A stretch of 25,911 nucleotides of DNA from a virus: IMG/VR virus record IMGVR_UViG_3300032315_000698, positions 1-25,911 of that record. One strand, 5' to 3'. A model generated the notes under the pieces. It saw only the letters and a list, made by a program, of their open reading frames with translations. It made no database searches and was not told the DNA's origin. The translations under genes were made by a program, and so were the position numbers. This document shows positions 293 through 14,080 of this stretch, piece by piece; the first letter of the stretch is position 1; each line of letters opens with the position of its first letter.

Positions 293-3097
293 ATGCCGCG
301 CTTTGCTGTAACAGTTGATGACAACGGAGTTCAGAAGCGGGTTGTTCTGGAGTCTGATACGCAGCCGACAGAAGCCGACGTTCTTTCAGCTTTGCGTGGT
401 TCGGCGCAGCCATCAGGTCCATCCACCATCGCTGAGATGCGTCGGCGAGAGGAAGCCAGCCAAGTCTCCGCGCTGACTCCTGCTCAGGTTCAAGAGCAGG
501 TTGGTTCTCCTCAGCAGCTCGAACAGGCGGTTCAGGATTCAGGTAAGGTTGGAATGATGGAGAGGTTTGGTAAGGCAATCGAAAATTTGCCATGGGAATA
601 TGGACAGCTTGCTGACCCTGTTGGAATGCTTGCGCCAATGGAAGGCGGTCGAATCGCTCCTTCTGGAGAGCTTACTCCATTGGCGCAAGCTGAGGCTCGC
701 GGAATGATGCGTGGAACAGCTATGGGCGCCAGGGCTATTCCCGCTTTGCTTGCTGCCCCCGCAAGCAGTGGAGCATCTATTCCTGCGATGATGGGTACTG
801 GCGCTCTTGCATCTGCAATAGGCGAGGCGGTCGGTCAAACAATCGAAAAGCTTTTTGGGATTAGGCAAGATGTTTCAGGGCGAGAAATTGCTGCATCTGC
901 TGTTACTGGTGCTGCTCCAATTATTCCAGGAGGAGGTTTTCTTAAGCCGTTGGCAAACATCGCCATGCAAGGAGCAGGCGGCGTTGCTGGAGAGGCTGTT
1001 AGAACTGGAGAATTCGAACCGGGAGCTAGTATTGTCCCTGCCGCGCTAACTGCCGGATTTCAAATTCCGGGAGCAATCGCTGGTCGAGCCGGTGCTGGAT
1101 TTGAACGTGCCGCAGAACGTGCTGCAACGGTCGAAAGAATTGGGGAGGGGGTTCAACCTACGTTCGGTCAAGCGATGCCTCGTTTTGCTGGTCTTGAATC
1201 AAGAATTGAGTCTCGCGCTGGGATGCCTCCAATCACCGAGCAACTCGCTCGTCAAGGTGAGCAGATTAAAACCGCAGTTCAAAAGTTAACCGGCGTCGCG
1301 GCTGAAGGAGCTGACACGTTGACTCAAAAACTTCTTGGCGCACTGAGTGCCAATGAAATTGACGACATCGCAAACGCTTCAAGAAATCTGAAAGATGCGG
1401 AAACCGTTTTGGAATCTGCTCGCGGACAAGCGCAGAAGCAGGCTCAGCAACGAGCAGTAGATCAGGCGCTTCAAGCATATCAGGACACGGTGAAAAACAC
1501 CTTGTTCAAAGGTCAGAATATTTCCGCATTTCGCGTTGTTCCTGCTGGCCAGCAAATCGAATCGCTCGCAGATCAGGCGAAGACGGCGATTAAAGCTGAA
1601 GCAAACAGAATCTACGGACCTGCCAACGCAGTTGAAAACGATCAGAAATTCAACCTTTTCAAGCCTGTTGGCGACGGCCCTTCTTTTGCGGCTCAAGCAA
1701 ATGAACTGTTGGCCCAGATTCCAAGCATTCACGCCTCTGGCTTGAAAGAGGCTAGGAAGATTTTGTCGAGAACAGAGACGGTGATGACTCCATCATCGAT
1801 GGACCCGACTCGGCCCGTGACAGTTTCAGTGCCTCAAAAAGCCAGTTTGAAGGAGCTGAAAGACCTTCGAGATGAGCTTTACGATTTCGCTGATTATGCC
1901 GGTGAAGCCATTGGAAGCGGTCAACAAAGACAGGTTAAAAATCTCGCAACCACTCTTTCCCAAACGATTGCCGATCAGGCTCCTGAAGCCATAGGTGCTG
2001 AAGCCGCTGCTGCAAGAGCTGCTGGTGATGAGTTTTATGCGGCGACACGACCGAAGCTGAATCTTTTCGGAGTTCGCAGAGCGTTTGCTCCAGAAACTAT
2101 GGAGCGTGGCCAGCTTGGCCAGGCAATGGTCAGCGGAGTCAAAGCTCAAGGCTTGCTTGCCCCTGAATTTGCGAACGTCGAATCACTTGTCAACACGCTG
2201 AAATCCCGTGGAGTTGCAAACGCTCCCGATCTTCAGGATGTGTACTCGTCTATCCGATCTGGAATTGTCAGCGACGCAACAGACAAAGCCACTGGAGCAA
2301 TCGACTACAAGAAGCTTGCCGGAACAATCAACAACCTAGAAACGCAGAGTCCCGGCGCACTTGAGAAGGTTGGTCTTGGATCAAAAGATCAGCTTTCGAA
2401 GTTCGTCAATTTCCTTGAAAGCACCGGCCAGAAAACTGGTCCTCAAGCGTTGCTAGACATTTTGCAGACCAAAACACCTGCCGGATTTGCTGTAGCATCT
2501 GAAGCGGTTCAGTTGCTTCCAAATGTGAAGGATGTTGGATCTGTTGTTCGGTATCTTGAACGCGAGGCGATTGCTGGAAATAAGCTGGCCAAAGAAGCGT
2601 TGATTTCGACTCGCGCTAGAGAGATTGAAGATATTCTTTTGGCCGAGACTGTTCTCGGTGGCAAAGGGCCGAATCTCAAAGGTGTTTTCAAAATAAATCG
2701 AGCTGAACAGATTCTTGGGCCGACTCTGTACAAGCAAATTGTTGACGACATCATTCCTGGCTACAAAACCATCTTAATGGCTGAACGTGCTGCTGGTGGA
2801 GGCGGTGCGCTTGTATCTGGTCAGGCTGCTGAAGAGTTGGTTGCTGGAATTCCTCAATCAGCTCTTAAGGTTGCCGCTGGAAAACCAGTTGAAGGAATCA
2901 TGGGTGTAATCGGAACTGCGGTAAATGCTGGGTTCTACAATGTCGCAGCAAAGGCGCTGGCTCGCGCATCTGGATCTGCTGGTTATCGTAGCGCCGCAGA
3001 TACGGCTCGAATTTTTGAGAAGTTCTCAAACATTCCTCGGGCGTCACTTTACGATGCGTTGAGCAAGTACGCTGACACCGGAGAACTTCCGAAATGA
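293..3097 (+). CDS. Large Ala/Gly-rich virion protein, possible internal/DNA-ejection protein
   Basis: A 934-residue protein starting at ATG 293 without a clear SD. Residues 1-40 form a short beta-rich module (PRFAVTVDDNGVQKRVVLES). A Gln/Glu-rich segment follows to about 90. Residues about 135-260 are strongly Ala/Gly-rich and hydrophobic (GARAIPALLAAPASSGASIP), and could insert into or cross a membrane. Residues about 300-420 look coiled-coil (ESARGQAQKQAQQRAVDQAL). A long helical region occupies the C-terminal half. This build, a large Ala-rich helical protein with membrane-active stretches in a late operon, is typical of podovirus-type ejection proteins, but I see no catalytic motif. The function is therefore an inference; a tail or minor structural protein is also possible. 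Its stop overlaps the next start (ATGA, 3094-3097). Confidence 0.75.
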   Translation: MPRFAVTVDDNGVQKRVVLESDTQPTEADVLSALRGSAQPSGPSTIAEMRRREEASQVSALTPAQVQEQVGSPQQLEQAVQDSGKVGMMERFGKAIENLPWEYGQLADPVGMLAPMEGGRIAPSGELTPLAQAEARGMMRGTAMGARAIPALLAAPASSGASIPAMMGTGALASAIGEAVGQTIEKLFGIRQDVSGREIAASAVTGAAPIIPGGGFLKPLANIAMQGAGGVAGEAVRTGEFEPGASIVPAALTAGFQIPGAIAGRAGAGFERAAERAATVERIGEGVQPTFGQAMPRFAGLESRIESRAGMPPITEQLARQGEQIKTAVQKLTGVAAEGADTLTQKLLGALSANEIDDIANASRNLKDAETVLESARGQAQKQAQQRAVDQALQAYQDTVKNTLFKGQNISAFRVVPAGQQIESLADQAKTAIKAEANRIYGPANAVENDQKFNLFKPVGDGPSFAAQANELLAQIPSIHASGLKEARKILSRTETVMTPSSMDPTRPVTVSVPQKASLKELKDLRDELYDFADYAGEAIGSGQQRQVKNLATTLSQTIADQAPEAIGAEAAAARAAGDEFYAATRPKLNLFGVRRAFAPETMERGQLGQAMVSGVKAQGLLAPEFANVESLVNTLKSRGVANAPDLQDVYSSIRSGIVSDATDKATGAIDYKKLAGTINNLETQSPGALEKVGLGSKDQLSKFVNFLESTGQKTGPQALLDILQTKTPAGFAVASEAVQLLPNVKDVGSVVRYLEREAIAGNKLAKEALISTRAREIEDILLAETVLGGKGPNLKGVFKINRAEQILGPTLYKQIVDDIIPGYKTILMAERAAGGGGALVSGQAAEELVAGIPQSALKVAAGKPVEGIMGVIGTAVNAGFYNVAAKALARASGSAGYRSAADTARIFEKFSNIPRASLYDALSKYADTGELPK

Positions 3098-3409: not shown

Positions 3410-3598
3410 ATGGACAAGATGCGACTTGGTGGTGGCGGGCGTTACGAGAAGCTCATCAGCAGTCTTGAGAAGAAGGGTGTGAGAGAGCCTCGCGCTCTTG
3501 CGGCTTACATCGGACGCAAGAAGCTCGGCAAGGCGAAGTTTCAATCGCTCGCTGCGAAAGGCCGTCGCCGTGCCGAGCGTGAGAAGGCTAACGCTTAG
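3410..3598 (+). CDS. Small Lys/Arg-rich phage protein (GGGGRYEKL... family)
   Basis: 62 residues starting at ATG 3410, five nt after the previous stop. It begins MDKMRLGGGGRYEKL and continues KKGVREPRALAAYIGRKK and KFQSLAAKGRRRAERE. This is a pattern I recognise from many phage genomes as a short basic conserved protein of unknown role, usually placed by structural genes. The high Lys/Arg content suggests nucleic acid contact, which is inference. Its last 11 nt overlap the 3' end of the leftward primase-helicase gene, so the two converging operons run into each other with no terminator between them. Confidence 0.8.
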   Translation: MDKMRLGGGGRYEKLISSLEKKGVREPRALAAYIGRKKLGKAKFQSLAAKGRRRAEREKANA

Positions 3599-5420
3599 GT
3601 CGTCCCGTCCACGGCTTCTTCGCCGCTGCCTTATCCACGACAAACTTCTCAGGTTCTGCGTAGTTCCATGAGATGTCGCCGCCTGTGCCACGCTGGATCA
3701 TAATCGATCCGGTGACTTTTCCGTCCTTATCAGTCATGCCGGAACGGTCTGCCCGTTTGGCCATTCCAAGCATGAACTTGCGCGGGTTGTTGAAGCCAAC
3801 CTCCTTCATCACAATCACCTCTCTCGCCCAGTTCGTCAGATCCGACGATCCGAATCCTGAGTAGGCCAAATCTGCCACGCTCTCAGGCTTGTCATCCTTT
3901 CCCTTCGGCTTTGGGAAGTGATGGACAAGTACCAGGACAACGCCCGTCTCCATCATAATCGGCTGGAGCAGGTGTCGCGTGAAGTTCGCGCATACCTCGA
4001 TGTCCGCAGGATTGCCGCCCATGTAAGAGAGCAGCGGATCGATGTAAACAACGTCAGCCTTGGTCTTGCGAACGAGGCGACGGAGCATTGTGGCGAAGTC
4101 TGTTCCGGTGCGAACCGTTTCACGGAAGAAGAGCATGTCCACGCTCCGCAATCCTCGCTCCCAGTTCTCTTTGCCGCTGGTCATCTGGGCAGCGGCTTGG
4201 AGTGCGTCATGCTGATCGGCGATGTCGTTTTCCGCCTGGATGTAGGCCACCTTCAGTGCGCGAACAGGCTTTACGCCAAACCACGCTTCACCGGACGCCC
4301 ACTTCATCCCCTGATACGCGGCCATCGAGCTTTTGCCGCAACCACTTTGGCCGACGAAGAGAAGCGATGAACCGCGACGTAGCCATCTGTCACCGATCAG
4401 ATTGTCAGGATCGTTCTTCGGGTCGTACTCGATGATGCTATCAAGCGAGAACTCCTGAGGCATATCCTGCGACTCCAGATAGTCCGTGAACGCATCCCAG
4501 TTCACGACGCCCACATTGATGGCCAACAGCTTCTGCTCCTTGCCATCGCGCATCACACCGGCAAGACGGCTGAACCTACTCGCGTTCTTATTCTTCGGAT
4601 CGATTCCGAGAGCTTCTAACTGGCGATAGACAACATCACGACGCTCGCTCCATTCCTCCTTGTTCGCCGCATCCACACGCACCCAGCCGTGCAAGCTCTT
4701 GCCACCGGAATCGATGACGACAGACATAGGCAGCTTAGACTCCTTGAGAATCGTCCACTGCTCGTCTTTCGTCTTCTCGTCCATCTCGACCAAGACATGG
4801 CGGAATGCTGCCACGCCGGAATCAGAACCGCTCTCATCGAAGCACGGGTTGACGCGGACGTAAGCACCACGGCTGTCAGGACCGTTCCACATGGCGCTGA
4901 TGGGCGGCGTGAAATGGTTCTTAATCCATTCGTCGCGCTTGAGGAACGTACCTTTGGAGTTTGGCCGAGTCCGACCTTCATCGTCGCTTACGATGTCATT
5001 GCAGATGCAGACAACTTCATCCGGCTCGAAGCAGGCTTTTAAGAAATCTATGGTTGAAAATCGGAAATCCGATTGCGGAATTGCTTGGATCTTCTGGACG
5101 ATGAACTTGCCGGTGGGCGAGATGGGTGTGCCTCCCTGGCTGATGCCGGGATGCGATTCCAGAAGCCATCCGCGCGGCTTGTCGTGCGGAACCTTGGACG
5201 CCTGATTGAGCTTATGCGCCAATTCGTTCTGCTTCCACGGAGGGAGGCATTTCGCGTTGTACTCATGCAGGAGCGACTCCGCATCCCCCGCATTCAGCTC
5301 AAAACCGTGTATGAGCGCGGTTGCTACTGCGAAGGTTGCGTTATGACCGCCCTGACCAGCGACGGCTCCTGGCGTGTTTCTAAGCCATGCTCTTGCACGG
5401 TCGATCTTTGATTGGCTCAT
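3588..5420 (-). CDS. AEP-type primase fused to a RecA-fold (RepA/AAA_25-like) helicase
   Basis: 610 residues, the last gene of leftward operon A. Residues about 5-85 (NTPGAVAGQGGHNATF, EYNAKCLPPW) match the small helical domain often found at the N-terminus of phage primase proteins. Residues about 120-320 show archaeo-eukaryotic primase features: VEMDE at 211-215, SGGKSLHGW at 238-246 and SRFSRLAG at 281-288. From about 345 there is a RecA-like ATPase with Walker A GQSGCGKSS (357-365), Walker B ADVVYIDPL (455-463) and VLVHHFPK (497-504). The likely role is to make primers and unwind the replication fork of the phage genome. The start overlaps the stop of the upstream gene (ATGA, 5417-5420). 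The motifs are seen; the fused primase-helicase role is inferred from the families. Confidence 0.88.
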   Translation of the reverse strand: MSQSKIDRARAWLRNTPGAVAGQGGHNATFAVATALIHGFELNAGDAESLLHEYNAKCLPPWKQNELAHKLNQASKVPHDKPRGWLLESHPGISQGGTPISPTGKFIVQKIQAIPQSDFRFSTIDFLKACFEPDEVVCICNDIVSDDEGRTRPNSKGTFLKRDEWIKNHFTPPISAMWNGPDSRGAYVRVNPCFDESGSDSGVAAFRHVLVEMDEKTKDEQWTILKESKLPMSVVIDSGGKSLHGWVRVDAANKEEWSERRDVVYRQLEALGIDPKNKNASRFSRLAGVMRDGKEQKLLAINVGVVNWDAFTDYLESQDMPQEFSLDSIIEYDPKNDPDNLIGDRWLRRGSSLLFVGQSGCGKSSMAAYQGMKWASGEAWFGVKPVRALKVAYIQAENDIADQHDALQAAAQMTSGKENWERGLRSVDMLFFRETVRTGTDFATMLRRLVRKTKADVVYIDPLLSYMGGNPADIEVCANFTRHLLQPIMMETGVVLVLVHHFPKPKGKDDKPESVADLAYSGFGSSDLTNWAREVIVMKEVGFNNPRKFMLGMAKRADRSGMTDKDGKVTGSIMIQRGTGGDISWNYAEPEKFVVDKAAAKKPWTGRPKR

Positions 5421-6636: not shown

Positions 6637-7098
6637 TCATCTGCCGCCGCCCATTGCATAGTGCAGGATCAGAAGCGCGTCGCAGTTGTTGAGCGTAACG
6701 TCGAGGTGCGGGTATAGCTCCTGAGCCTTAGACCTCAGCTTTCGCTTCCATTGAGGTCCGGTGTCGCAAGATTTGCGTCCGCCAAGCCCAAGCGGTTCTT
6801 GCCATATCTTCGGCTCAACGCGGTGCAGCGCGTAGCCTTGAGCGTAGGCCAATCCTTGGATGATGCCGTAATTCTCATGGAGTGTCGCCATGCTCGCGTG
6901 TGATGTGAGCTTGGACACGAACTTCGGCACCTTCTCAACCCAGAGTTGGCTATCTGCTAATTTGAACTCCATTAGTAGTTTGGCCATGTCGGGCAATGAC
7001 TCAGGCATTGAGAAAAGGAAGATGCCATGTGGCGAACTCACGGCGACGCCGCCGCCAACGCCTGGATCGACCGCAACAATTTTTTCGTTTGATTTCAT
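6637..7098 (-). CDS. RuvC-like Holliday junction resolvase / RNase H-fold nuclease
   Basis: 153 residues. The N-terminal strand KIVAVDPGVGGGVAV carries the first catalytic Asp (D11) of the RNase H fold, WVEKVPKFV gives the second acidic residue (E55), and NNCDALLILHYA the C-terminal Asp (D140). A basic segment (GPQWKRKLRSKAQELYP) lies before the last helix. The order and spacing match phage RuvC-like resolvases, which cut branched DNA before packaging or during recombination. It starts 2 nt downstream of the SSB stop and is part of the replication operon. Confidence 0.88.
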   Translation of the reverse strand: MKSNEKIVAVDPGVGGGVAVSSPHGIFLFSMPESLPDMAKLLMEFKLADSQLWVEKVPKFVSKLTSHASMATLHENYGIIQGLAYAQGYALHRVEPKIWQEPLGLGGRKSCDTGPQWKRKLRSKAQELYPHLDVTLNNCDALLILHYAMGGGR

Positions 7099-7099
7099 T

Positions 7100-7459
7100 T
7101 TAATAGCAAAGGACCGTTATTTGTTCCGCCGCGATACGCACGGCGCTCTTGGTTTCACCGCCATCGCTCCACTTCTCAACCTTCACACGGCCTTTGACAC
7201 GCACCAAAGCGCTGTTCTGAATCTCGATAATTTTCTCCGCAACTTGTCCCCATGAGGACAGTTCGAATTCATCGTAATCTTCGTAAAACCTACCATCCGC
7301 ATCCGTCCAGTGACGAGCGACAGATATGACGCGGCGCACCATAAGCGCACCCGTCTTGGTTTCAGTTTGGCGACTGATGCCCCGGAGTTCTCCGATCAGA
7401 TAAACCACGTTCTCTGTTGGCGTGGCTGTTTCGTTTGTTGTTGTAATTGATGCACTCAT
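7100..7459 (-). CDS. ssb: Single-stranded DNA-binding protein (OB fold)
   Basis: 119 residues from ATG 7459, chosen because it forms an ATGA overlap with the helicase stop (7456-7459); a further ATG at 7489 would extend it by 10 residues into the helicase. The core has the SSB pattern: NVVYLIGELRGISRQTETK, VRRVISVARHWTDADGRFYE, DYDEFELSSWGQVAEKI and ALVRVKGRVKVEKW. The acidic C-terminal tip ending in PF that bacterial SSBs use to recruit partners is absent; the protein stops at EQITVLCY. Such a tail is found instead on the protein at 11818-12249. Confidence 0.85.
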   Translation of the reverse strand: MSASITTTNETATPTENVVYLIGELRGISRQTETKTGALMVRRVISVARHWTDADGRFYEDYDEFELSSWGQVAEKIIEIQNSALVRVKGRVKVEKWSDGGETKSAVRIAAEQITVLCY

Positions 7460-9573
7460 TGGAAGACGCAACCGAGTTGACGGTAGCATTCCATTCGCTT
7501 TTTTGCGTGGTATGCTCCGATGGGGTGAAACTTGTCAGAAAAGTCCACGATTGTCGCGCAGTTCTTGGTTTCTGTTTTCCGCAGTGCGCGACTCGCTCGC
7601 TGGATAGTCTTCTGCGACGACCGACCGCCGCTGACCATAATCAGCAGCTCGACGTTGGGAAGATCCAACCCTTCGTCGGCCAATGATGTGGCAATCATGG
7701 TCCGCAGGTTGCCAACCTTGAACTCCTCCATCGCCGCCCTGCGCTGCTTCTTGCCGATCTTCGAATGGACGAGGAGTGAACCGGGAATGCGCTTTTCGTA
7801 GTCTTCACCCAACGTGATGCGAGGGATAAGGATGAGCGTCTGCATGTCGCCATACTCCACGGCGTAGTCGATGGCGTAATCATTGCGCCCACGGTTCTCG
7901 CAGATGCCGATGTTCACAAGCGATTCCCAGGCACACATGCGTTTTAATTCGTCGTCACTTATCCGCATATGCCGCCGTCTTGTTACAAACAGCCGGTCGA
8001 TGTTGTCATCGATCTTCTGCTTCAGATTCAGATCGGTTGCGTCGGAGAGTTGAAGGTAAGCGTCGGCCAATGAATCGCCGATGTCGCTTCGTTTGATTTC
8101 GTACTGACGATTGCGGAAGAGCGTTCGTGTTACGGCGTTGCGGTCTTCATCGTCGCACCAAGGAGTAGCATCGAAGCCATAACGCGGCCCGTTACAGGAC
8201 TCGATGATGCGACGCCATCCGGCAGCAGGACTATGCTTGCAGTTGTGGACTAAGATTCCGTTGGCGAAGTAGTTCTCATTTCCCTCAACCGAGAAATTGT
8301 AGACATAATCTTCTCCGCGCATTGCTGCGAACCAAGAAGGACTTCCTTGTTTGTGAACCTCAACACGCACCACCCTAACGAATTGAGTGTTTCGGTTTTC
8401 TTTTTGTCCGCAGCTTTTCTGCTGATTGAGTTGTGAGATGGTCCGTCCACCTCCACCGCCAGCTTCACTGATGGTTCTGCCAAGTCCACTTTGTAGCAAT
8501 TTGGAACCTTGGCCATTCCGCTCCCCGCTGTAAGTATCACATACTCCATCAGAAGGTTGCACATGTACGAAAGCTGGTGTTGAGCAAATGTGTAACCCGT
8601 TCCATTCCCGCCACGAATCTTGGGCTTGTGGCCAATCTTTTTCAGCGATTCCGAGACGCGCCTTCTGGTTTGATCTGAAACGACTCTTGCGCTCATCCAT
8701 TTCGAAATCTTGTCTCCCATCCTTTTGTTTGTGGCAGACATCGTTTCCGAACTCATTTTTGAAACCATCAAATCCCGACATTGAATCGAGCAGTAGGCTC
8801 GCCCCCTCCTCAGAGCATCCAAACTCTTGTGAGCCGGAGTTCTCCCCATGCATGTGACTGGCGTCTTGCACCATGCACATTGAGTTTCTACTCGCTTCCT
8901 TTTCTCGAAACGAAGAACGGTTTTGCATTGTTCGCAAACCGGCTTCCGAGTTGTTGAGAAATGACCGTTTCTTTCGGTCATCGAACCGCACTCTCTGCAT
9001 TCCATGTTCATGCGTTGGAATGATGGCCACCACATCGCTGGATGTCAAGTTGGCGGCTGCAACATACTCGAATCCGTTCCAGAATGGATGGCCTGAAGTG
9101 CAAGTGACTGGTCCGTTTTCAGTCCAAACTGTCACCATTGTGTCGGGAGCTGGAGTCTTGAAAACATCAAGAACACGGCGTTTTTCAATGGTTTTTGAAC
9201 TGTGGTCGTAAGAGTCAACCATGTCTCCCACCTTGATTTCGCTGATTGTCTTGCTTCCGATTTTTGTCCAAGCAGGAAAACACTCATCAACGATCAGCAT
9301 GTCCTTCTTACTGAAGTCCACAGACTCATGCGGACAGCGCACCTCAACTACCTCGTCAGGCACACCGGCAACCTTCAGCGATGTGCGCGCTTGCTGGCAT
9401 GTCTCGCGGGTTGGAGCGAGCCAGCCGAATCTAGCCCCACCCAAGCCATGTTGGAAGTGCTTGATGATGCTCGCAGCAATCCATGTCTTGCCACTGCCTG
9501 CGGGTGCGATGATCAGTCCATCGCTAGTTTTGGCCCACTCGACTGCTTTCTGTTGGTATTCTCTTAGATTCAT
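7456..9573 (-). CDS. SF2 DNA helicase (COG1061-like) interrupted by an intein
   Basis: 705 codons. The N-extein (residues 1-97) holds Walker A APAGSGKT (23-30), motif Ia (WLAPTRETCQQA) and the first half of the DExH box, LIVDE. The intein occupies residues 98-444. The C-extein (445-705) resumes with CKHSPAAGWRR, giving DECKHSPA after splicing, then motif III GFDATP, motif V MIATSLADEGLDLP and motif VI QRASRALRK. The mature helicase would be 358 residues, a normal size for compact phage SF2 helicases of this type. The motif assignment is clear. Its role, unwinding or branch processing, is inferred from its place between SSB/RuvC and the recombination genes. The stop overlaps the ssb start. Confidence 0.93.
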   Translation of the reverse strand: MNLREYQQKAVEWAKTSDGLIIAPAGSGKTWIAASIIKHFQHGLGGARFGWLAPTRETCQQARTSLKVAGVPDEVVEVRCPHESVDFSKKDMLIVDECFPAWTKIGSKTISEIKVGDMVDSYDHSSKTIEKRRVLDVFKTPAPDTMVTVWTENGPVTCTSGHPFWNGFEYVAAANLTSSDVVAIIPTHEHGMQRVRFDDRKKRSFLNNSEAGLRTMQNRSSFREKEASRNSMCMVQDASHMHGENSGSQEFGCSEEGASLLLDSMSGFDGFKNEFGNDVCHKQKDGRQDFEMDERKSRFRSNQKARLGIAEKDWPQAQDSWREWNGLHICSTPAFVHVQPSDGVCDTYSGERNGQGSKLLQSGLGRTISEAGGGGGRTISQLNQQKSCGQKENRNTQFVRVVRVEVHKQGSPSWFAAMRGEDYVYNFSVEGNENYFANGILVHNCKHSPAAGWRRIIESCNGPRYGFDATPWCDDEDRNAVTRTLFRNRQYEIKRSDIGDSLADAYLQLSDATDLNLKQKIDDNIDRLFVTRRRHMRISDDELKRMCAWESLVNIGICENRGRNDYAIDYAVEYGDMQTLILIPRITLGEDYEKRIPGSLLVHSKIGKKQRRAAMEEFKVGNLRTMIATSLADEGLDLPNVELLIMVSGGRSSQKTIQRASRALRKTETKNCATIVDFSDKFHPIGAYHAKKRMECYRQLGCVFQ
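8242..9282 (-). other. Intein inserted in the helicase DExH box
   Basis: 347 codons in the helicase frame. Block A begins at Cys1 (CFPAWTKIGSKTISEIKVGD). Block B is GPVTCTSGHPFWNGF, with the TxxH catalytic pair at intein residues 62 and 65. Block F is YVYNFSVEGNENYFANG and block G ends ILVHN, followed by Cys+1 of the extein. These are the residues needed for class 1 protein splicing. The N-terminal splicing domain covers about residues 1-90 and the C-terminal one about 299-347. The central ~208 codons are stop-free but look non-globular in this frame. No LAGLIDADG or HNH is present in frame; the endonuclease is in the +1 frame (see the CDS at 8250-9035). Confidence 0.93.
8250..9035 (-). CDS. 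EDxHD (Vsr/DUF559-like) homing endonuclease encoded in the +1 frame inside the intein
   Basis: 261 codons from ATG 9035; ATG 9011 or 9005 are equally plausible, and 9005 starts right at the first zinc knuckle. In order: CRECG...CEQC (C13, C16, C34, C37) and CAWC...CSIQC (C53, C56, C82, C86) zinc knuckles; a NUMOD3-like DNA-binding stretch RRRVSESLKKIGHKPKIRGG; then the nuclease core CYKVDLAEPSVKLAVEVDGP, followed by SH and KAADKKK, then GWCVLRFTNKEVL. E195, D197, H201 and D210 fit the EDxHD catalytic pattern. No good SD is seen at any start. The TAG stop (8252-8250) lies inside the Leu-Val codons of intein block G. It would make the DNA break that drives intein spread; specificity is unknown. 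Confidence 0.88.
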   Translation of the reverse strand: MWWPSFQRMNMECRECGSMTERNGHFSTTRKPVCEQCKTVLRFEKRKRVETQCAWCKTPVTCMGRTPAHKSLDALRRGRAYCSIQCRDLMVSKMSSETMSATNKRMGDKISKWMSARVVSDQTRRRVSESLKKIGHKPKIRGGNGTGYTFAQHQLSYMCNLLMEYVILTAGSGMAKVPNCYKVDLAEPSVKLAVEVDGPSHNSISRKAADKKKTETLNSLGWCVLRFTNKEVLLGSQQCAEKIMSTISRLREMRTTSPTES

Positions 9574-12273: not shown

Positions 12274-13068
12274 CTAACTCTCGGATTTATTCAGCACCCA
12301 TTTTGGGCATGAAAGCGTTTGCGTTGCTGTCGGATAGGCTGGCCAACTGTCCAGTGCGCGGCACTCATGGAGCGTCGAGATGGCTTTACGCCGCAGGTTC
12401 TCACCGGCCTGAAGCCACTCGATGTCCAGCTTGTAGATGCCGACGGCGTACGGAGCTTTGCGTTCGACGGCTACGAAGATGAAGTTTTCCGCTCCGGTCA
12501 TCGCTAGATAGTGAGCGGCTTGAATGTGATAGCCGAACGTGGTGACGGTTCGCGAGAACGCTTCAGCCGAAGCATCGTCGGTGGTCTTAACGTCCACCAA
12601 TGTGCCGTTATCGACCCACAGATCGGGACGAGCTTTGAGAGGTAGGCCAGTCTCCTCATCTTGAGCGAAGACACTCGCCTCGATCTTGTGCGGCAGATGA
12701 ATGATGTCCCAGAACGGATGGCGGCGGACGCTGTTGGCGACGCCCTGGACATCAATGTCTTCAGCGTGAGTCAGGTGAATGCGTGACTTATGCTGCTCCT
12801 TCCATGCTTTTCCCTCCTTGGTCCGGCCGTCGATGTCCGGTGGAACGACGGCGACAACCTGAGAGTAGAGTTGCGGTTCGAGGACAGCGGTATGAATCGC
12901 CGTGCCAAGCTGCATAGCCTTCGTCGGCTCTTGATGCTCCTCCAGCGCGGCTTTGTAATGCGCCGGTGACTTGAGGATCTTGGTCATCATCGACTTTGAG
13001 AGGGCGTCAACGGCGTGATACTTCTCGGCTGGCATGTCGAAATTGATGTGGCGGTTTTGGATGCTCAT
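12274..13068 (-). CDS. RecE-like PD-(D/E)XK exonuclease
   Basis: 264 residues from ATG 13068 (ATGA overlap, GAGG upstream). VDALSKSMMTKILKSPAHYK (about 20-39) matches the N-terminal substrate-handling part of RecE C-domain/DUF3799 nucleases. GTAIHTAVLEP follows at 55-65. The catalytic core is KIEASV (E130), LKARPDLWVDNGTLVDVKTT (D149, D159, K161) and GYHIQAAHYLAM (179-190). It should be a 5'-3' dsDNA exonuclease that makes 3' tails for the RecT-like annealing protein encoded 215 nt upstream. All the main catalytic residues are present. Confidence 0.87.
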   Translation of the reverse strand: MSIQNRHINFDMPAEKYHAVDALSKSMMTKILKSPAHYKAALEEHQEPTKAMQLGTAIHTAVLEPQLYSQVVAVVPPDIDGRTKEGKAWKEQHKSRIHLTHAEDIDVQGVANSVRRHPFWDIIHLPHKIEASVFAQDEETGLPLKARPDLWVDNGTLVDVKTTDDASAEAFSRTVTTFGYHIQAAHYLAMTGAENFIFVAVERKAPYAVGIYKLDIEWLQAGENLRRKAISTLHECRALDSWPAYPTATQTLSCPKWVLNKSES

Positions 13069-13283
13069 TTGTCTGCCTCACATTGGCCTTTGTAATTTCT
13101 CATTCCATCTACCGCTACTGCCACGGCAACGATGCGTTCAATCACTTCCATGTCATCTTCTGTCGCCTCCTCATTCCATCTCAGATTTAAGTTGCCACGT
13201 TCAACAGCACCTTGAAGCAAGGCAGCGATGTAAATGTCGATTCGGGTTGGAGACTCTTCGTATGCAAGTAGTTTAGGGTTCAT
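13065..13283 (-). CDS. Hypothetical 72-residue acidic protein between recE- and recT-like genes
   Basis: Starts at ATG 13283 and is coupled by ATGA overlaps on both sides. It reads MNPKLLAYEESPTRIDIYIA, ALLQGAVERGNLNLRWNEEA, then a helical tail DDMEVIERIVAVAVAVDGMR. The ESPTRIDIYIA stretch recalls ESPSRIDVDYI in the gene at 5957-6157. Position between the exonuclease and annealing genes suggests an accessory or inhibitor role, but this is only inference. Confidence 0.6.
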   Translation of the reverse strand: MNPKLLAYEESPTRIDIYIAALLQGAVERGNLNLRWNEEATEDDMEVIERIVAVAVAVDGMRNYKGQCEADK

Positions 13284-14080
13284 TCGAGTGTAGGAGCTGA
13301 AAATGCCTTCGCCTTGATGATGAAGCTGTCAGAATCAGCGATGATCATGTTGGCCACCTTGGTGCTGACATCGCGGAAGTTCTGGCCTTCCTTGATCAGG
13401 TTCTTGCTGATGAGAAACGCATTGGCGATGTCGCTGTGCGGTTCGAGGATTTGCTCCAGCTTGTCTGTCAGCGAGAAGGTCGATTCCGGCGTCACATTGA
13501 CCGTCTGGCGCGTCGGAGTGGATGCGGTGGGTGCTGACGGCGTAACAGAGAAGTCGGCCACTTCCTCGGGCGTGTAGCGGCCTTGCGTGATACGCGGATC
13601 GAGCATGCGAGTCGCCTTGCTGATGACACGCGCACGGAGCATCTCAGCGGGGAACTTTGCCCAGCCGCTTCCTGGCTTTGCGGGGATTAGGCCAGCTTGC
13701 TTCGCATCATCTGCGGTGAATGAGACGCGAACCTTCTTCGCGCCTTTGGTGAAGTCGGCGATTGCGGCGACTGCGTCGAACTGAATCCAGTCGATGTCCC
13801 AGCCAGCATTCATCAGACCAGAAAGCATCGACTCGCTCTTCATGGTGATGTTGCCGTTGATCAAATGGTTCTCGCGCTTCCAGGAAAGCGGAGTCATCCG
13901 GCTGGCGATGCATTCCAGAGCAAGGACATATCCCTGCTCAGGCTTGACGCATCCGAACATGCCGGAATGCGCTATCCAATCACCCATCGTCTTCACCGCA
14001 TCCATCGGACTATCGATGCGGTCGTAGAAGTCAGGACTCAGGGGTTGCGTTACTGTCGTTGGAACTAGGTTGCTGCTCAT
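13280..14080 (-). CDS. RecT-like single-strand annealing protein
   Basis: 266 residues from ATG 14080; the start overlaps the HTH gene by 50 nt. The centre carries features of phage RecT-family annealing proteins: PLSWKRENHLINGNITMKSE with SMLSGLMNAGWDI, then KVRVSFTADDAKQAGLIP, and WAKFPAEMLRARVISKATRM followed by LDPRITQGRYTPEEVADF. The FPxxMLrxRaisk...Pdi..G.YtpEE pattern is diagnostic in my experience. A Thr/Pro-rich linker separates a C-terminal helical part. It anneals complementary ssDNA and pairs with the RecE-like exonuclease downstream. Confidence 0.83.
   Translation of the reverse strand: MSSNLVPTTVTQPLSPDFYDRIDSPMDAVKTMGDWIAHSGMFGCVKPEQGYVLALECIASRMTPLSWKRENHLINGNITMKSESMLSGLMNAGWDIDWIQFDAVAAIADFTKGAKKVRVSFTADDAKQAGLIPAKPGSGWAKFPAEMLRARVISKATRMLDPRITQGRYTPEEVADFSVTPSAPTASTPTRQTVNVTPESTFSLTDKLEQILEPHSDIANAFLISKNLIKEGQNFRDVSTKVANMIIADSDSFIIKAKAFSAPTLE

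Follow-up and report, generated by a model that had tools for sequence, protein, structure and literature searches.

Intein endonucleases are normally thought of as in-frame domains. Fractured genes (Dassa et al. 2009) are reported to consist of split inteins around a free-standing EDxHD endonuclease gene, and ShiLan-type insertions place an out-of-frame HNH nuclease in phage methylases without any splicing domain (PMC11855218). The ShiLan-type insertions are the only close precedent that we found for the locus examined here; the literature searched held no prior description of a dual-coded intein and none of an EDxHD-type enzyme overprinted on an intein. The locus lies in an IMG/VR virus record, and the whole 25.9-kb stretch of DNA analysed is referred to as the window. 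What appears to be new, as far as that literature shows, is the gene arrangement, an unbroken cis intein with a nuclease overprinted in the +1 frame, while the intein and the homing endonuclease are themselves of known kinds.

An intein and a nuclease ORF on the same DNA

The intein interrupts a minus-strand ORF for an SF2/RadD-XPB-like helicase (7456-9573) of 705 residues, which would be reduced to 358 if the intein were spliced out (705-347). The N-extein coding part (9283-9573, minus strand) ends ...IVDE at helicase motif II. The class 1 intein itself (8242-9282, minus strand; 347 residues, C1 ... HN) occupies residues 98-444 of the helicase ORF, and the C-extein coding part (7456-8241, minus strand, stop included) starts CKHSPA, the rest of motif II. 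The insertion is in frame and is missing from 78 homologues (L004-L081), which read on DE-CKH; one of these, L004, aligns contiguously over the junction. Motif II is split in the window as DE/C…HN/CKH (slashes marking the junctions), and removal of the intein is therefore expected to be needed.

The splicing signatures in the window are C1, TxxH (TSGH), YVYNFSVEGN, ILVHN and Cys+1. The first two lie in the N-terminal half of the HINT splicing domain (9013-9282, minus strand; intein residues 1-90), and VYNFSVEGN and ILVHN, followed by Cys+1, in its C-terminal half (8242-8391, minus strand; residues 298-347). In the AlphaFold model of the intein frame these halves together form a HINT domain (pLDDT about 96), for which the Foldseek matches are inteins and BIL domains. 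The linker of about 195 residues between them (residues 93-288; 8419-9006, minus strand) has no stop and is predicted to be unstructured, with pLDDT mostly <50. Profile matches in the helicase frame were to Intein_splicing (1.1e-11) and intein_Cterm (TIGR01443, in the C-terminal half; 1.8e-08), the former being found in 53/53 family members. Across these 53 sequences C1, T62, H65 and N347 are invariant and H346 is kept in ≥90%. The criteria for a class 1 intein HINT domain (C1, TxxH in block B, C-terminal HN and Cys, Ser or Thr at +1) are met; that this class 1 intein splices out is inferred, without direct evidence of splicing.

The helicase gene has replication and recombination genes for neighbours (3588-5420, 6637-7098 and 12274-14080, all minus strand), which encode a primase, a Holliday junction resolvase, an exonuclease VIII-like protein and a RecT-like annealing protein. 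Elsewhere in the window, a 934-residue ORF (293-3097, plus strand) had no PHROG match at 1e-5.

Nested entirely within the intein, and +1 relative to helicase and intein, is a 261-residue nuclease ORF (8250-9035, minus strand), which matched DUF559 at 1.1e-12 and was modelled by AlphaFold2 with a mean pLDDT of 91.3. Its first Zn-knuckle (8925-8999, minus strand; C13xxC16 ... C34xxC37) is seen in the sequence, and its second (8778-8879, minus strand; C53xxC56 ... C82xxxC86) is conserved family-wide. A putative helical NUMOD3-like DNA-binding part ending in RGGNG (8601-8786, minus strand) is seen in the AlphaFold model, and the catalytic domain (8280-8597, minus strand; E195-D197-H201-D210) has a DUF559/EDxHD (Vsr-like) fold. 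DUF559 was matched by 61/61 family nucleases; D184, D197, H201 and D210 are invariant across the family and E195 is kept in ≥90%. The EDxHD criterion, a Vsr/PD-(D/E)XK-like fold with conserved E, D, H and D, is met. Sequence-profile matching gave E 2e-11 for the DUF559 protein 3hrl and only a weak match to I-Bth0305I (3r3p; E 0.11-0.21). The predicted C-terminal domain aligned with 3hrl (Z 12.2, 86 aligned residues, 1.4 A), with I-Bth0305I (Z 10.8, 90 residues, 2.3 A) and with Vsr (1cw0; Z 9.4, 98 residues, 2.5 A). The best Foldseek matches in the PDB reached only E 7e-3 to 1e-2, values that are modest because the catalytic domain is small.

The first ATG of the 261-residue ORF is not conserved (ATA in L090, GTG in L091), and M9 and M11 (RMNMEC) are kept in 12/12 close relatives; hence, the nuclease is probably 251-253 residues long, starting at 9011 or 9005. 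We consider the 253-residue product from the ATG of MNMEC... (8250-9011, minus strand) the most likely, with the ATG at 9005 as the alternative. Across the family, an ATG is found ≤10 codons upstream of the first Zn-knuckle in 54/62 representatives, as against 26.6 expected from the intein peptide, and a nuclease-frame stop occurs ≤3 codons before the ATG in 18/60, leaving little room for frameshifting. Shine-Dalgarno pairing at nuclease ATGs exceeds that at control out-of-frame ATGs (p 9e-9) and that in an intein-synonymous null (p 8e-4); no Shine-Dalgarno sequence was found at the nuclease start in the window's copy or its clade. Just upstream of the start in the window is a promoter-like TTGACA-17-CATCAT (9020-9048, minus strand). 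The TTGACA is present in 13/13 close copies and the whole site is only partly conserved among close relatives; it is weak and not significant, since chance alone would place 0.9 such sites in this region. A near-leaderless nuclease transcript from this site is possible, but the site does not rise above chance level. We infer that the nuclease is translated from its own internal ATG, for which there is no direct evidence of translation.

A preliminary description, made from the sequence alone, had placed the intein at 8242-9282 with its splicing blocks, and had given a spliced helicase of 358 residues and a nested +1 nuclease of up to 261 residues. All of this is upheld by the ORFs and by the profile searches of both frames that it had proposed (Intein_splicing and DUF559), except that the nuclease probably starts 8-10 codons later. 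Its label of NUMOD3-like is weakly supported, with Pfam detecting NUMOD3 in only 1/61 family members.

Recurrence of the layout and selection on both frames

In twelve further IMG/VR contigs the same intein occupies this site with no change in length (347 residues), both frames being open. A tblastn search of cultured phage genomes with the nuclease matched 41 records; 40 of these matches were in genes annotated as helicase, NTPase, hypothetical or coil-containing protein, and the remaining one was a Leptolyngbya phage homing endonuclease. Six cultured phages were inspected (Corynebacterium phage phi673; Vibrio phages CP-T1, 159E43-1b, 1.088.O and 1.194.O; and Pseudomonas phage MR14), and in all six the nuclease is +1 to the annotated helicase with complete intein blocks on both sides.

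Loci were classified with purpose-made HMMs, one for each intein half (N and C) and one for the nuclease. In this survey both intein halves were found around 153 distinct nuclease sequences, which form 128 clusters at 70% identity and derive from contigs in IMG/VR, from genomes of bacteria and from cultured phages of Vibrio, Pseudomonas and Corynebacterium. All of them (153/153) combine an unbroken intein frame with a +1 nuclease; in-frame, +2 and split arrangements were each seen in 0/153. Bacterial assemblies with members are named Chloroflexi, Akkermansia, Elusimicrobia, Ktedonobacter, Polyangiaceae, Acetobacteraceae, WWE3 and Planctomycetota, and these members are presumably prophages. The same layout was present in 80/80 loci fetched with the intein as query, in a scan for which the profile was a 7-sequence subset, the full 53-sequence intein alignment being too divergent. 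No in-frame homologue was found in two nuclease-profile scans of viral contigs, one such scan of genomes, tblastn searches of phages and plasmids or the intein-first scan. A set of loci (L116-L179) that match only the generic DUF559 catalytic domain, and in which no intein was seen, was left out.

Three members (L107, L108 and L109) have the same layout in SNF2-like proteins, with HN/SSILK and Ser at +1. They fall in an SNF2-like helicase subgroup with L260-L269, characterized by Ser at +1 (HN/SSILK being read in L107-L109) and by a nuclease middle region that differs. L267 is apparently a stand-alone derivative with a broken intein frame; in L267, as in L114, the nuclease is found alone.

Selection was examined in 62 representatives below 70% nuclease identity (median pairwise identity, 41%). 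They contain 0 intein-frame stops, whereas synonymous recoding of the nuclease predicts between 528 (with their own codon usage) and 636 (with that of the exteins). For the window's copy alone, 0 stops compare with 14-15 expected, and 0/500 shuffles were stop-free. Where a pyrimidine-ending nuclease codon precedes AA, AG or GA, its third position is T in 0/968 cases in these representatives, compared to 53% elsewhere, and in 0/1910 cases in the 128 clusters; T-avoidance and the stop counts are one fact seen two ways and are not independent. As controls, free-standing nuclease relatives carry 7-36 stops in the corresponding frame, and overlapping members average 13.8 stops in the third frame, which they do not use.

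In the close set, divergence at the three intein codon positions is 0.15/0.10/0.33 before the nuclease start and 0.26/0.08/0.08 inside the nuclease; this flip indicates that the constrained frame changes, at the nuclease start, from that of the intein to that of the nuclease. Among 13 close copies nuclease identity is 81-98%, with amino acid identity exceeding nucleotide identity in most. No selection on the linker peptide beyond openness was detected, its hydropathy (-0.93) being no lower than the null (-0.99). These results show that openness of the intein frame is under selection and that the nuclease frame is under purifying selection.

The preliminary description had guessed that openness was selected, at a chance probability of about 5e-5, and this holds far more strongly (0 stops versus 528-636 expected). 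It had proposed a search of phage metagenomes for the two-frame arrangement and a frame-specific analysis of selection; the arrangement proves to be recurrent in many unrelated phages, and selection is clear in both frames. Two observations that it had named as fatal were not borne out: indels, as the layout is found in 153 distinct sequences including cultured phages, and in-frame homologues, of which there are none among the 153 or among the 80 intein-query loci. Its suggestion of a nested element, one stretch serving as a linker for cis splicing and as an independent nuclease gene, is supported, with splicing and nuclease translation inferred. Its remark that it knew of no described example needs one amendment: an out-of-frame nuclease in an in-frame insertion, without an intein, has a precedent in ShiLan (PMC11855218).

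Mobility, proposed model and rival explanations

The exteins of the window are 92% identical to intein-less L004. Its intein DNA is 92.9% identical to the L002 intein, while the L002 exteins are only 66/71% identical. Empty sites, together with an intein identity (~93%) far above extein identity (66-71%), show that the element moves. Intein and nuclease distances co-vary (Mantel r 0.46, p 0.0005) and the correlation remains after control for the exteins (partial r 0.36); hence, intein and nuclease travel largely as a unit. Mobility of this unit is shown, whereas homing itself is inferred.

In four loci (L103, L225, L231 and L318) a nuclease gene, at about 3.4-4.6 kb per locus, lies directly upstream of an intein-less helicase, with the gene ends touching or overlapping. 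It is possible that these free-standing nucleases are homing genes targeting the same helicase without an intein. At 4940-4960 of L231, the helicase frame is off by one base exactly at the intein-site codon (GATGAA CGGA CACCACGCA), and a homing scar, a pseudogene or an assembly error are each possible. A lone nuclease relative in L250 (3965-4645) is immediately upstream of a phage terminase large subunit; L281 (3977-4618) is another cut of the L250 contig.

We consider it very likely that the locus is a mobile dual-coded intein, with cis splicing of the helicase and translation of the nuclease from an ATG of its own. Both frames, their conservation and the empty sites are shown; splicing, nuclease translation, cleavage and homing are inferred. 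According to this model, the linker DNA of the intein doubles, in the +1 frame, as a homing endonuclease gene. Reading of the helicase frame would produce a precursor whose two HINT halves (residues 1-90 and 298-347) come together in one fold, with the ~195-residue disordered linker between them, and cis splicing of this precursor would restore motif II (DE-CKH). A second initiation, at the internal ATG of the same mRNA, would produce a separate nuclease of ~253 residues with two Zn-knuckles, a helical NUMOD3-like region and an EDxHD/DUF559 catalytic domain. This nuclease would most likely cut intein-less helicase alleles at the DE/C site, although cleavage is inferred and the target site is not known, and the break would be repaired by copying from the intein-bearing allele.

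Other explanations have to be weighed against this model. The nuclease could be produced by programmed +1 frameshifting or transcriptional slippage, as a fusion of helicase N-terminus, intein N half and nuclease, rather than by internal initiation. The nuclease is indeed always +1 and never +2, and in some members its frame runs without a stop for tens of codons before the ATG. However, a constant phase follows equally from a single origin, and the excess of ATGs just before the first knuckle (54/62 versus 26.6), the enriched Shine-Dalgarno pairing and the close upstream stops in 18/60, which allow almost no room for a shift, make this route unlikely. The possibility that the helicase-frame insert is left unspliced and tolerated as a loop, as in ShiLan, with only the nuclease being of importance, draws on the out-of-frame HNH nuclease in an unspliced phage methylase insertion (PMC11855218) and on a linker under no detected selection beyond openness, with hydropathy near the null. 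We regard it as very unlikely because a full HINT domain is predicted (pLDDT about 96), the C1, TxxH and N residues are invariant with Cys or Ser at +1, and the insert splits a helicase motif from which its removal is expected to be needed.

It is similarly improbable that the nuclease frame is a remnant in decay whose expression has been lost. The lack of an obvious ribosome-binding site in the window's clade is in keeping with such decay, but divergence in the overlap is distributed as the nuclease frame predicts (0.26 at its third codon position versus 0.08 at the other two), the catalytic residues are invariant and the 13 close copies retain 81-98% nuclease identity, mostly with amino acid above nucleotide identity. 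An in-frame nuclease domain with an assembly or sequencing indel at either end is all but excluded: no supporting point was found, and the +1 layout is present in 153 distinct sequences, among them deposited genomes of isolates (phi673, CP-T1, MR14 and the Vibrio phages), with 0 stops in the 26,690 intein-frame codons of the survey set. The mobile dual-coded intein thus remains our preferred reading. A bolder version is that dual coding in a fixed +1 register is obligatory throughout a widespread intein family, and that this family is also the missing intermediate toward fractured genes and naturally split inteins; on balance, we lean slightly against accepting this combined claim. The ancestral role is proposed because a single stop in the intein frame would divide the intein into two halves flanking a nuclease gene that is autonomous already, and it stands as a possible hypothesis.

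Comparison with known systems

Overprinting of an endonuclease gene and an intein linker over about 200-260 codons in >100 divergent lineages makes a very clear case of a long overlap on the same strand, since the codons themselves reveal the constraint. This arrangement would explain how an intein can carry a multidomain Zn-finger nuclease without folding it inside the splicing precursor, and a separate nuclease would let the two products be made in different amounts. It also offers a route, open to testing, by which fractured genes and split inteins could arise. In dozens of cultured phage genomes, an endonuclease gene has gone unnoticed beneath the label "helicase" or "hypothetical protein".

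The window's intein resembles BIL domains in its N-terminal block, CF(P/V)AGT, and its best sequence match in the PDB is 2lwy, but it lies in a conserved helicase motif and has a +1 nucleophile, empty sites and an endonuclease, as in true inteins. The nuclease shares its catalytic-domain fold and active-site pattern with I-Bth0305I (3r3p) and the DUF559/Vsr endonucleases (3hrl, 1cw0), although the published description of I-Bth0305I places it with the homing endonucleases of group I introns. Large inteins of the ordinary kind, with LAGLIDADG or HNH enzymes in frame, likewise have a HINT domain, a nuclease between splicing blocks B and F and insertion at a conserved active-site motif; in the family described here, the nuclease is read out of frame and the intein polypeptide does not contain it, and an in-frame endonuclease was found in 0/153 members and in 0/80 loci of the intein-first scan. 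As in fractured genes, a separate EDxHD-fold nuclease ORF lies between the intein N and C halves in phage replication genes, but the intein frame runs unbroken through the nuclease gene, such that splicing would be in cis and the DNA is coded twice; no member has the intein or host gene broken into two ORFs (153/153 unbroken).

The closest likeness is to ShiLan, which has a homing-type nuclease in another frame of an insertion without a host-frame stop, a patchy distribution and a location in phage enzyme genes. Of the features that define the ShiLan type, a nuclease in another frame of a host-open insertion is met here, whereas an HNH enzyme without a splicing domain is not, a HINT domain and a DUF559/EDxHD enzyme being present. 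Where ShiLan combines an HNH nuclease with no splicing domain, this family combines a complete class 1 intein with a nuclease of EDxHD/DUF559 fold, and does so in many more members and with measured constraint on both frames.
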